This document shows positions 5,944-27,047 of a stretch of 48,857 bases of DNA, in pieces. Every line of letters begins with the position of its first letter. Position 1 is the first letter of the stretch. Below the pieces are notes generated by a model. That model was not told the DNA's origin. It did not search any database and saw nothing but the letters and a program-made list of their open reading frames with translations. A program made the position numbers and the translations under genes. The stretch comes from Deltaproteobacteria bacterium (lineage in GTDB: Bacteria > Desulfobacterota > GWC2-55-46 > DRME01), in NCBI GenBank assembly GCA_011375175.1, contig DRME01000078.1, positions 1 through 48,857 of the forward strand, in the 5' to 3' direction.

Positions 5944-6012
5944 GGCTCCGCCTCCTTGCGCCCTTCGCCTTCGCCCCCCCCGGCGGCAAGACGGGCGCCT
6001 CCATGAATTACC

Positions 6013-6060
6013 CTGGGGGAAACTTTCTGTAGAAGGGCCAGAGGCTCACGTTTCCCCCAG
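6013..6060. repeat. Family B hairpin (long, Y-shaped form)
   Basis: Outer arms CTGGGGGAAAC and GTTTCCCCCAG enclose two small stems (TTTCTgtAGAA and GGGCCagaGGCTC). The same form with altered stems appears at 6234-6280, 6377-6425 and 24243-24289; the simple form is at 98-131 and 24519-24552. Confidence 0.75.
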
Positions 6061-6086
6061 CCCCCTCCTATGTTATTCGGATGTTT

Positions 6087-6163
6087 GGCGGTCCTCTGGA
6101 GGTTCGGCCCGCGCCAGGCGGGATTTTTTACGCCTTTGCGGCCCGAACCTCCAGAGGACCGCC
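6087..6163. repeat. Family A hairpin, copy A2
   Basis: Arms 6087-6112 and 6138-6163 pair at 25 of 26 positions, leaving a single C-C mismatch close to the core. The core is GCCAGGCGGGATTTTTTACG plus CCTTT (6113-6137), identical to copy A5 at 24345-24369. Between A2 and A5 an arm pair changes from T-A to C-G on both sides, a compensatory change. Confidence 0.85.
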
Positions 6164-6209
6164 CCCCCCGGGGCAGCTAATGCGGACAAGACACCCCCTT
6201 CAAAGACTC

Positions 6210-6448
6210 TTGAGGAAACTCTGATTTATTGCACTGAGGGAACCTTTTTGTAAAGGGTCACAGACCCACGGTTCCCTCAGACTCCTTCCAAAAACTTTTA
6301 ACGCCCTGCGGATCATCCCGATTTTGCGAGCAAAATCGGGATGATCCGCAGGGAATTAAAAGTCTTTGAAGGGGGGCTGGGGGAAACGTGGGCCTATGGC
6401 CCTTCTACAGAAAGTTTCCCCCAGGTAATTAATCAGAGTTTCCTTAAC
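6210..6448. repeat. Nested ~240-bp palindromic element (D-B-C-B-D)
   Basis: Terminal inverted repeats read GAGGAAACTCTGATT on the left and AATCAGAGTTTCCTT on the right. Inside lie two facing family B hairpins (6234-6280 and 6377-6425), conserved flanks (ACTTTTAACG / ATTAAAAGTC) and a central family C palindrome with perfect 24-nt arms (6304-6327 and 6330-6353) around two bases. The left half aligns along its whole length with the reverse complement of the right half. No open reading frame of note. It looks like a non-autonomous (MITE- or BIME-like) element or a large structured terminator. Confidence 0.8.
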
Positions 6449-6527
6449 TTGGGCTGAAGGAGCTCGTTTCATCGGCGATCATGAAAGCCAACGCGGCTCG
6501 AGGAGCAAACAAAAGGGGGGAGAGAGG

Positions 6528-7018: not shown

Positions 7019-7051
7019 CTTTCCTTCGGGCCGCACGCAGTGATGGGGACG

Positions 7052-7118
7052 CTCTTATTGCACCGGGGGAACCTTTTTGTAAGAAGATTTCCCGGGGTAA
7101 ATCGCAGCTTCCTTGAAG
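7052..7118. repeat. Truncated composite repeat (family B core with D ends)
   Basis: CTTATTGCACCGGGGGAACC and TTTCCCGGGG form a degraded family B hairpin. It is followed by TAAATCGCAGCTTCCTT, related to the D motif at 6429-6446. The family C centre is missing. It ends 8 nt before tRNA-Gly. Confidence 0.55.
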
Positions 7119-7736: not shown

Positions 7737-7896
7737 CCCCTTCAAAGTCACTTCCTTACACAGCGCTTCAGGGAATTTCCGGTTCATTCCACTGAGGGAA
7801 CCTTTAACGCCCTGCGGATCATCCCGGTCTTGCAAGCAAGATCGGGATGATCCGCAGGGAATTGATCAGAGCTTCCCTTAAAAGTCTTTGAAGGGG
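7737..7896. repeat. Family C palindrome, copy C3, with flanks
   Basis: Arms 7810-7833 and 7836-7859 pair over 24 nt with one G-T wobble (CCCTGCGGATCATCCCGGTC...). CCCCTTCAAAG (7737-7747) and CTTTGAAGGGG (7886-7896) form outer complementary ends. Half of a family B motif (ACTGAGGGAACCTTT) precedes the left arm and the D motif (TTGATCAGAGCTTCCCTT) follows the right one. Confidence 0.8.
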
Positions 7897-7923
7897 ATAT
7901 CTTGACCGCGCCCGCCGCATGGG

Positions 7924-8000
7924 GGCGGTGGCCGGGAGGTTCGGGCCGCAAAGGCGTAAAAGATCCCGCCTGGCGCGGGCCGAACCTCCCGGCTACCGCC
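7924..8000. repeat. Family A hairpin, copy A3 (inverted orientation)
   Basis: Arms 7924-7949 and 7975-8000 pair over 26 nt, with one G-T wobble and the same single near-core mismatch seen in A2, A4 and A5. The reverse complement of the core (7950-7974) is GCCAGGCGGGATCTTTTACG plus CCTTT. It shows that the apparent N-terminal extension of the dnaE frame from 7902 is not coding. Confidence 0.85.
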
Positions 8001-8070
8001 GAACATACGAATCCGGAGTTTCCCCGGTCTTTTTCCGGCTCACAGAAGACTACCAAAATCGCCCGCGACG

Positions 8071-13905: not shown

Positions 13906-15012
13906 ATGATGATCACCGATACCAAAGACAGGCTTAAACTGCCCGTGCCCGACTACATAGCCTCGCTCGTGCCCTATCCGCCGGGGAAGCCCATCGAGGA
14001 GCTGGAGCGCGAGCTCGGCATAAGCGGCTCCATCAAGCTTGCGAGCAACGAGAATCCGTTAGGGCCGTCGCCCAGGGCCATCGAGGCCGCGGCGCGGGCC
14101 GTGAGGGAGGCGCACCGCTATCCCGACGGTTCATGCTTCTATCTCAAGCGCAGGCTCGCCGCCCACCTCGGCGTCGAGACCGGCAACATCATGGTCGGCA
14201 ACGGCTCCAACGAGATCATAGAGCTGCTCGTCAGGACCTTCGTGAGACCCGGAGACGAGGTCCTCATGGCCGATCCAAGCTTCGCCGTCTACCCGCTGGT
14301 GACCCAGGCTGCGGGCGGCGCGGCCGTGCGGGTGGGGCTGAGGGAGATGACCATCGACCTCGACGCCATGGCCCGCGCCCTGACCGGCCGCACGAGGCTC
14401 GTCTTCATCGCAAACCCCAACAACCCTACGGGCACAATCGTCACGGCCGCGGCCCTCGACGCCTTCATGGAGCGGGTGCCCCCCGGTGTCGTGGTCTGTA
14501 TCGACGAGGCCTATTACGAGTACGTGCGAAGCCCGGACTATCCCGACTCGCTTCGCTACATAAAAGAGAGGGCCGTCGTGGTGCTGCGCACTTTCTCCAA
14601 GATATACGGCCTTGCCGGTCTCCGCGTCGGCTACGGGGCCGCGCCCGAGGAGATCGTCTCCCTTGTCGAGCGTGTGCGACAGCCCTTCAACGTGAATTCC
14701 GTGGCCCAGGCCGCCGCCTGCGCCGCCCTCGACGACAGGGACTTCGTCGAGCGTTCACGGCGGGCAAACGCCGATGGCCTCCAATACCTCTTTGCGGGAC
14801 TCGCCGAGCTCGGCCTTGAAACGGTCCCCACTGAAGCCAACTTCTTTCTCATAAAAGTCGGCGACGGCAAGCGTCTCTATGAAGAGCTGCTGCGGGAGGG
14901 TATCATAGTGAGACCCATGGGCGGATACGGCCTCGGCGAATACATAAGGGTCAACGTCGGCACAAAAGCCGAAAACCACCGCTTACTTTCTTTTTTGAAA
15001 AAAAGAAAGTAA
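13906..15012 (+). CDS. hisC: Histidinol-phosphate / aromatic aminotransferase (PLP, class I/II)
   Basis: 368 residues. HisC family, PLP-dependent: KLASNENPLGPSP near the N-terminus, ANPNNPTGT, the Asp of CIDEAYYEY, the Schiff-base lysine in TFSKIYGLAGLRVGYG, and a C-terminal Arg in EYIRVNVG. The family converts imidazole-acetol phosphate to histidinol phosphate. Placement between pheA and aroF suggests it also, or mainly, transaminates phenylpyruvate and hydroxyphenylpyruvate. No other his gene is nearby. The final residues (LLSFLKKRK) and the stop codon lie inside the T-rich palindrome at 14981-15014, so the original C-terminus may have been altered by insertion. Two ATG codons start the ORF; the first is used. 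Confidence 0.9.
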   Translation: MMITDTKDRLKLPVPDYIASLVPYPPGKPIEELERELGISGSIKLASNENPLGPSPRAIEAAARAVREAHRYPDGSCFYLKRRLAAHLGVETGNIMVGNGSNEIIELLVRTFVRPGDEVLMADPSFAVYPLVTQAAGGAAVRVGLREMTIDLDAMARALTGRTRLVFIANPNNPTGTIVTAAALDAFMERVPPGVVVCIDEAYYEYVRSPDYPDSLRYIKERAVVVLRTFSKIYGLAGLRVGYGAAPEEIVSLVERVRQPFNVNSVAQAAACAALDDRDFVERSRRANADGLQYLFAGLAELGLETVPTEANFFLIKVGDGKRLYEELLREGIIVRPMGGYGLGEYIRVNVGTKAENHRLLSFLKKRK

Positions 15013-15151
15013 GCAAAGAAAAAACGATGAATCTTGTTGGGCGTCGTTGCGCCGCCGGCAGGCAAAGCGGCCCTCAACTTCCTCTCACGCGGGTTCCTTT
15101 TTTTGGATTTTGAAGGAGAGGGGGAAAAGAGGGCGTTTGAATCTGTCGGGG
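14981..15151. repeat. Direct repeat copy 1, led by a T-rich palindrome
   Basis: It begins with GCTTACTTTCTTTTTT and its complement AAAAAAGAAAGTAAGC (14981-15014). It runs through AACGATGAATCTTGTTGGGC and GCCGCCGGCAGGCAAAGCGG to CTGTCGGGG. The same 171-172 nt appear at 15284-15455 with few changes. The palindrome provides the hisC stop codon and could act as a bidirectional terminator. Confidence 0.85.
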
Positions 15152-15207: not shown

Positions 15208-15283
15208 GGGTGTTTGGTGCCGGGTCGGGCCGCAAGGGCGTAACAACCCCGTCCGGCGCGGGCCGACCCGGCGCCGAACACCC
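15208..15283. repeat. Family A hairpin, copy A4 (inverted orientation)
   Basis: Arms 15208-15233 and 15258-15283 pair over 26 nt, with two T-G wobbles and the usual near-core mismatch. The reverse-complement core reads GCCGGACGGGGTTGTTACGC plus CCTT, the most diverged core in the window. It sits between the two direct repeats; the end of its right arm (GACCCGGCGCCGAACACCCG) is repeated after copy 2 at about 15458-15477. Confidence 0.75.
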
Positions 15284-15455
15284 GCTTACTTTCTTTTTTT
15301 GAAAAAAGAAAGTAAGCAAAGAAAAAACGATGAATCTTGTTGGGCGTCGTTGCGCCGCCGGCAGGCAAAGCGGCCCTCAACTTCCTCTCACGCAGGTTCC
15401 TTTTTTTTTGAATTTTGAAGGAGATGGGGAAAGAGGGCGGTTGAACCTGTCGGGG
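15284..15455. repeat. Direct repeat copy 2, led by a T-rich palindrome
   Basis: Second copy of the 171-nt unit at 14981-15151, including a palindrome (15284-15317) with arms CTTACTTTCTTTTTT / AAAAAAGAAAGTAAG. It ends about 90 nt before aroF. With family A4 between the copies, the 536-nt hisC-aroF gap is almost wholly repeat DNA. Confidence 0.85.
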
Positions 15456-24318: not shown

Positions 24319-24395
24319 GGCGGTCCTCCGGAGGTTCGGCCCGCGCCAGGCGGGATTTTTTACGCCTTTGCGGCCCGAACCTCCGGAGGACCGCC
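24319..24395. repeat. Family A hairpin, copy A5
   Basis: Arms 24319-24344 and 24370-24395 pair at 25 of 26 positions with the same near-core mismatch as A2. The 25-nt core (24345-24369) is identical to A2. The left flank ATTCGGCTGCTT resembles the A2 flank ATTCGGATGTTT. Confidence 0.85.
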
Positions 24396-24423
24396 CCGCC
24401 TGGCGGCTGATGCGGGCAAGACA

Positions 24424-24515
24424 CCCCCTTCAAAGACTTTCAGTTCCCTGCGGATCACCCCGATTTTGCTTGCAAAACCGGGATGATCCGCAGGGCGTTA
24501 AAAGTTTTTGGAGGG
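24424..24515. repeat. Family C palindrome, copy C4
   Basis: Arms 24446-24469 and 24472-24495 pair at 22 of 24 positions (CCCTGCGGATCACCCCGATT...). Conserved flanks CCCCTTCAAAGACTTT and GTTAAAAGTTTTTGGAGGG continue the pairing imperfectly. Confidence 0.8.
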
Positions 24516-24518
24516 AGT

Positions 24519-24560
24519 CTGAGGGAACCTTTTTACAAAAAGGTTCCCTCAGTGCTTTTT
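24519..24560 (+). terminator. Family B hairpin followed by a T run (probable terminator)
   Basis: Perfect 16-nt arms (CTGAGGGAACCTTTTT, 24519-24534; complement 24537-24552) around AC, followed by TGCTTTTTT. It would insulate the icd promoter at 24564 from upstream transcription. Confidence 0.55.
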
Positions 24561-24592: not shown

Positions 24593-24617
24593 GGACGCTC
24601 CAAAAACAAACCACACC

Positions 24618-27047
<2,430 letters not shown>

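Follow-up and report, generated by a model that had tools for sequence, protein, structure and literature searches.

The window analyzed here, a contig of 48,857 nucleotides from the 2.49-Mb draft genome of a Deltaproteobacteria bacterium (G000; 138 contigs, 98.6% complete), contains a palindrome of about 240 bp, which raises the question of what kind of sequence it is, how it came to lie at this site and how so long an inverted repeat is kept. A sequence-only reading had described it as a dispersed, modular and non-autonomous element able to fold into one long hairpin with side branches, and had argued that it must be either recent or actively maintained. A repeat search of the window recovered the palindrome as a single inverted pair with arms of 118 nt each (6210–6327 and 6330–6447), which are 78% complementary and separated by a 2-nt gap; its right end lies at 6447, one nucleotide before the end at 6448 given by that reading. 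As single-stranded DNA the palindrome folds at −87.7 kcal/mol, compared with −29.3 ± 3.6 kcal/mol for shuffled sequences (z = −16; 0 of 200 shuffles as good). The minimum-energy fold is indeed one long hairpin, but the proposed side branches are missing from it, and the side hairpins belong to an alternative fold.

The first and last 4 bp of the palindrome, TTGA at 6210–6213 and TTAA at 6444–6447 (neither assigned a strand), are target-site repeats, as indicated on both sides by alignment to an empty site and on the left also by the 4-bp duplication found throughout the family, so that the element proper comprises the 230 bp from 6214 to 6443, with inverted ends beginning GGAAACTCTGATT. It starts with a left terminal inverted repeat of the IS5 type (GGAAACTCTGATTTATT; 6214–6230, forward strand), a similar end of which adjoins an IS5 transposase in relatives, and finishes with the right terminal inverted repeat (AATTAATCAGAGTTTCC; 6427–6443, reverse strand). 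Between them lie, all on the forward strand, side hairpin B in a long form evident in the sequence itself (CTGAGGGAACC...GGTTCCCTCAG; 6233–6280); linker Lb (ACTCCTTCCAAAAACTTTTAACG; 6281–6303), which is imperfectly complementary to linker Lc through mismatches fixed in nearly all copies; the central palindrome P1, with 24-bp arms and a 2-nt loop, GA (6304–6353); linker Lc (AATTAAAAGTCTTTGAAGGGGGG; 6354–6376); and side hairpin C, also in its long form (CTGGGGGAAAC...GTTTCCCCCAG; 6377–6424). The general order inward is terminal repeat T, hairpin B, Lb (ACTCCCTCCAAAAACTTTTAACG), central palindrome P, Lc (AATTAAAAGTCTTTGAAGGGGG), hairpin C and T, where T is GGAA(G/A)CTCTGATT(A/T)ATT, or GGAAGCTCTGATTAATT when written out. 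Two side hairpins, two linkers and a perfect central hairpin together make the whole element one long imperfect palindrome.

The flanks of related copies argue for insertion by transposition. Exact 4-bp flanking repeats occur in 29 of 63 complete copies, against a mean of 3.6 in shuffled flanks (the largest of 500 shuffles gave 10), and duplications of other lengths show no comparable excess in these 63 copies. The target-site consensus is (T/C)TA(A/G), namely YTAR, with TTAG, ATAA, TTAA and CTAA as the commonest forms, and a YTAR target duplication is the insertion motif of IS5 (PMC10359306). The other 34 copies lack an exact duplication, and the pair flanking the copy at 6214–6443 is TTGA/TTAA. 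Removal of the 6214–6443 copy together with one 4-bp repeat yields the sequence CCCCCTTCAAAGACTCTTGACTTGGGCTGAAGGAGCTCGTTTC..., which matches a repeat that five further sites of this genome (L238, L244, L252 twice and L262) carry without interruption. Alignment to these five copies shows that the left part of the invaded repeat (CCCCCTTCAAAGACTC; 6193–6209, forward strand) joins its right part, module Q (CTTGGGCTGAAGGAGCTCGTTTC...GAGCAAACAAAAGGGGG; 6448–6519, forward strand), once the element is taken out. As judged from sequence comparison, the restored second repeat constitutes a paralogous empty site, from which the insertion point can be read as a TTAA; the target of the 6214–6443 copy lay inside another repeat. 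Module Q is itself a 68–69-bp non-palindromic insert that replaces P between Lc and Lb in at least five other copies (besides 6448–6519, at L238:6922, L244:2193, L252:4537 and 9127, and L262:11237).

Copies of the element are numerous in this genome and scarce outside it. The 29-bp junction between Lc and hairpin C, which occurs once per full copy, gave 289 matches in the genome at up to three mismatches, and a reversed control gave none; the same search returned 8 and 5 matches in two relatives of the order and, outside the order, two matches in one genome among some 285 sampled genomes of the phylum. The terminal repeat alone matched 475 times (control 0). At about 215 bp each, full copies would by simple arithmetic occupy roughly 2.5% of the genome. 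Among complete copies, the smaller size classes (74 and 87–89 bp) consist of a single hairpin between two terminal repeats, and the larger ones (203–206, 217–219 and 228–234 bp) of the whole set of modules, in which none, one or both of the side hairpins have the long form. The span between terminal repeats ranges from 74 to 312 bp, and the interior, composed entirely of hairpins and linkers, is under about 400 bp and has no coding capacity. Three central palindromes, P1, P2 and the rare P3, share the same linker context. No match to the element was obtained by BLASTN against plasmids and phages, and the repeats of relatives matched, among named records, "Deltaproteobacteria bacterium" MAGs and one Solidesulfovibrio MAG.

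Within the window, the four partial versions previously proposed at 1–155, 7052–7118, 7737–7896 and 24424–24552 are all real and read on the forward strand. The first, truncated by the contig start, is a complex copy that retains P2, hairpin C and the right terminal repeat, its central palindrome thus differing from P1 (1–151); the second, next to a tRNA gene, is a simple, one-hairpin copy in a decayed state (7043–7118); the third is a rearranged copy with P1 and a module order unlike that of the standard copy (7737–7898); and the fourth is a complex copy (L-P1-L-B) without terminal repeats (24423–24553). In addition, an isolated hairpin C (6012–6065, forward strand) adjoins a second type of palindrome, D. 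The D palindrome (6075–6166, 7921–8012, 15208–15283 and 24319–24395) carries a conserved core (GCCAGGCGGGATTTTTTACGCCTTTGCGG) in stems that differ between copies yet stay complementary, and has terminator-like features; its core matched 83 times in about 0.84 Mb sampled. Two copies of a self-complementary 34-bp sequence (GCTTACTTTCTTTTTTGAAAAAAAGAAAGTAAGC; 14981–15014 and 15284–15317), separated by 269 bp, flank one D palindrome, and a ZMP/ZTP riboswitch (24614–24698) lies directly after the complex copy.

The source of the transposition activity is suggested by the ends. A plasmid-borne IS5 element annotated as ISPa16 (L286) has the terminal inverted repeat GGAAGGTCTGAAAAAGAC, identical to T at 12 of 17 positions, and TTAG duplications. 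In a search of 48 genomes of the order, that of the window included, a T-type end adjoins IS5 transposase remnants in four relatives (G044, G012, G013 and G030). In G012 (L287) and G013 (L292) the end precedes a canonical IS5 start by 80–90 bp, on contigs that break off within the gene. In G044, a 555-bp element (L281) has two T ends around a transposase whose middle is deleted and which still matches NF033581 (IS5_4; E = 1.2e-19) and PF01609 (3.9e-7), and in G030 a 488-bp internally deleted IS5 remnant (L294) has T-type ends on both sides. These remnants and contig-end pieces were all that was seen in the relatives, with no intact autonomous element. Matches to PF01609 in G034 were rejected, since they are IS1182-like fragments that lack T ends. 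The order also contains, across its genomes, further MITEs in which these ends flank unrelated interiors, and in some of them (L046, L051 and L053) the TTAA duplication is exact. A different palindrome (GTCATTGCGAGC/GTCATTCTGAGC...GCTCGCAATGAC) is enclosed by IS5-type ends in other genera of the order (L046, L048, L050, L053, L054 and L176).

Searches of the genome of the window itself for an IS5 transposase (PF01609, NF033581) and for the other transposases tested gave no match, and the partner of the MITE there is missing, whether lost or unassembled. MITEs can outlive their autonomous partner, and draft assemblies drop multicopy insertion sequences; for these reasons an autonomous partner in the same genome is not strictly defining, and a multicopy insertion sequence may have dropped out of the 138-contig assembly. 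Many contigs begin or terminate within a copy (including the starts of C2, C3, C4, C7, C12, C14 and C32), and the repeat therefore probably breaks the assembly.

The high copy number, the hairpins and the mostly intergenic sites would also be expected of a REP/REPIN-type repeat moved by a hairpin-recognising Y1 transposase (RAYT/IS200-IS605). The Y1_Tnp profile, however, has zero matches in this genome with its approximately 290 copies, although it is present in 23 of the 48 genomes of the order. Y1 elements are not known to make target duplications, whereas the copies here have terminal inverted repeats with 4-bp duplications. The foot of a REP/REPIN hairpin bears a GTAG or CGTC tag, according to PMC3733652. 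The REP/REPIN explanation is largely refuted, and we regard it as extremely improbable. Taken together, the duplications, the YTAR consensus, the ends of relatives lying beside IS5 remnants and the lack of a transposase of its own point to a non-autonomous IS5-family MITE. The description of the locus as a dispersed, modular and non-autonomous element thus holds, on the basis of 289 copies, 29 duplications in 63 complete copies, empty sites and IS5-matching ends. The repeat ends and the target duplication are observed; the transposase step would consist of recognition of the ends by an IS5-group transposase and insertion of the element at YTAR-like 4-bp sites, which would be duplicated in the process.

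Related genomes give a view of how occupied sites change. In genus g10, five genomes have about 4 to 14 linker matches each, with the same interior bounded by a different outer repeat (GCAGGnTGCTGAAAA), at which no target duplication could be shown. Orthologous sites in g10 are either occupied or empty (L199, L200 and L202 versus L055), or are reduced to the outer repeat (L189 and L190) or to the outer repeat and one hairpin (L171, L181, L196 and L197). In the genome of the window, one-hairpin forms are sometimes B/C hybrids (L243:5570), as would be expected from deletion of the centre between the side hairpins. Copies would thus appear to shrink in place by losing the centre, giving the one-hairpin forms of 74–88 bp, a step that the orthologous sites support.

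The g10 sites also bear on whether the interior (B-L-P-L-C) could be a palindromic element in its own right, one that enters the tips of unrelated palindromes, with the IS5-like ends representing one host only. In g10 this interior is bounded by different outer repeats, the same outer palindrome holds other palindromic inserts or is nearly empty (L180 and L188–L190), and nested arrangements are common. On the other hand, the interior travels with IS5-type ends both in the genome of the window and in L040/L060 (family f3 and a groundwater MAG), target duplications accompany the IS5-type ends in the genome of the window, the outer repeat of g10 (GCAGGnTGCTGAAAAA) looks like an IS5-type end that has diverged, and loss of the centre explains the reduced sites. 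We consider an independent interior unlikely. Several further features of g10 were recorded. The side hairpin can be replaced by longer palindromic inserts (TTAGAGCCGTTGGATGC...GCATCCATCGGACCTAA and CAACTGAGATTGC...GCAATCCCAGTT; L131, L140, L141, L145, L160, L212, L142 and L125), which are restricted to the genus at the search sensitivity used, and another palindromic repeat (GCTCAAGATGCAAGGGGTCGAAA...GCAGATAGGGCTTTTT) lies in the same outer palindrome at the orthologous sites L180 and L188. No autonomous element was found in a search of the intervals bounded by the long left-hand and right-hand ends, which are further palindromic inserts, and a random per-copy "barcode" in the central stem was abandoned, as more copies gave a consensus (TTCCTGAGnnnnCCCCC) that drifts symmetrically.

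The central stem and the adjoining linker stem vary in different ways. Paired double changes in the central stem comprise 20 types in the P1 set and 19 in the P2 set, compared with shuffled maxima of 9 and 5, in tables whose cells count copies rather than independent events; the adjoining linker stem has 0 and 1 such types. Transversion pairs, which are unable to pass via a G-T pair, account for 11 types in each set, more than half. In the linker stem, five mismatches (offsets 1, 6, 11, 20 and 21) are fixed in nearly all copies, and almost all other changes are one-sided. Read from Lb to Lc, the P1 loop is CAAG in 23 copies and CTTG in 20, and the P2 loop is CCAGG in 15 and CCTGG in 11, or CCAAG in 8 and CTTGG in 5. 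Both loop orientations are found between identical arms, and the orthologous pair L035/L056 differs by a loop inversion.

Covariation in the central stem, together with the location of most copies outside predicted genes (7 of 86 lie inside by a rough gene prediction), would suit a conserved functional structure at fixed sites, such as a terminator, small RNA or regulatory hairpin, in which selection for base pairing produces the paired changes. Against it stand the empty sites, the adjoining stem with its five fixed mismatches and one-sided changes, and the freely flipping loop. Nor does the element belong to any Rfam family: at gathering and relaxed thresholds it gave only weak chance hairpin matches far below the cut-offs, with tRNAs and riboswitches being detected elsewhere. 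A terminator or convergent-gene role was rejected because copies are not enriched between convergent genes (6 of 64). Such a structure is very unlikely to account for the repeat, and no host function is supported.

Homogenised arms and inverted spacers are the signature of template switching between the arms of an inverted repeat (PMC8604942; PMC8794818). Template switching inside the hairpin fits the mutation pattern better than selection on structure, since selection would predict neither free inversion of the loop nor a boundary between P and the linkers. The part that is apparently corrected is the uninterrupted centre, and the linkers, which are broken by mismatches and lie further from the axis, are left uncorrected. 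Polymerase switching between the arms during replication would keep the central hairpin perfect and flip its loop. The sequence of the central palindrome also turns over, from P1 to P2 and P3 in this genome and to other palindromes in relatives. It is possible, although we propose it only tentatively, that the central hairpin is self-renewing, with loop orientations near equilibrium, wholesale turnover of its sequence and linkers that keep their mismatches, and that the hairpin may serve transposition. The earlier alternative of recent origin or active maintenance is consequently answered in part: a median nearest-neighbour identity of 96.6% marks the copies as not very recent, and signs of upkeep are confined to the central hairpin and do not extend to the whole palindrome. 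Overall, it is highly probable that the locus is a copy of a non-autonomous IS5-family MITE, in which the centre is lost from shrunken copies and the central hairpin is kept by template switching.

Elements of this kind are already known; what sets this variant apart is its interior of nested hairpins, its copy number and the template-switch signature of its central hairpin, and no paper describing these three together was found in a search confined to non-subscription literature. The element shares with the IS5 group (ISPa16/ISAch1-like) its ends (GGAAGGTCTGA...), the 4-bp YTAR duplication and the remnants beside similar ends in relatives, but differs in having no transposase gene, in its interior of nested hairpins and in its length of 74–234 bp versus about 1.2 kb. 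The Chunjie MITE of Geobacter uraniireducens measures 178–235 bp and has 38 copies plus 57 partial ones (PMC10969869). By description only, our element is similar to Chunjie in size, terminal repeats, target duplications, intergenic sites and abundance of partial copies, and is unlike it in having about 290 copies and a nested central hairpin that varies between them. ERIC sequences of enterobacteria, with about 30–711 copies per genome (reviewed in PMC10969869), are likewise short, palindromic and high-copy by description only; the present element has IS5-type ends. REP/REPIN sequences with RAYT are similarly high-copy hairpins, in contrast to which the present element has no Y1 transposase and has terminal repeats with 4-bp duplications. 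Finally, template-switch-corrected inverted repeats in yeast genes and rRNA hairpins (PMC8604942; PMC8794818) show the same arm homogenisation and spacer inversion, whereas here the pattern is seen in about 90 copies of one mobile element within a single bacterial genome.

Most probably, a selfish element has spread to about 290 copies in this lineage. A long palindrome, of a sort expected to vanish quickly, is present in some 290 near-parallel copies in one small genome. Copies tend to lie at contig ends and probably fragment metagenome assemblies. If the proposed upkeep is correct, the element would serve in nature as a recorder, at high copy number, of template switching in hairpins; its mutations separate one-sided drift of the linkers from two-sided change with loop inversion, which occurs only in the uninterrupted central stem, and natural rates of hairpin template switching would become measurable in bacteria. 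Covariation within a repeat could then stem from replication rather than from selection on RNA structure, which would call for caution in structure-based RNA discovery.
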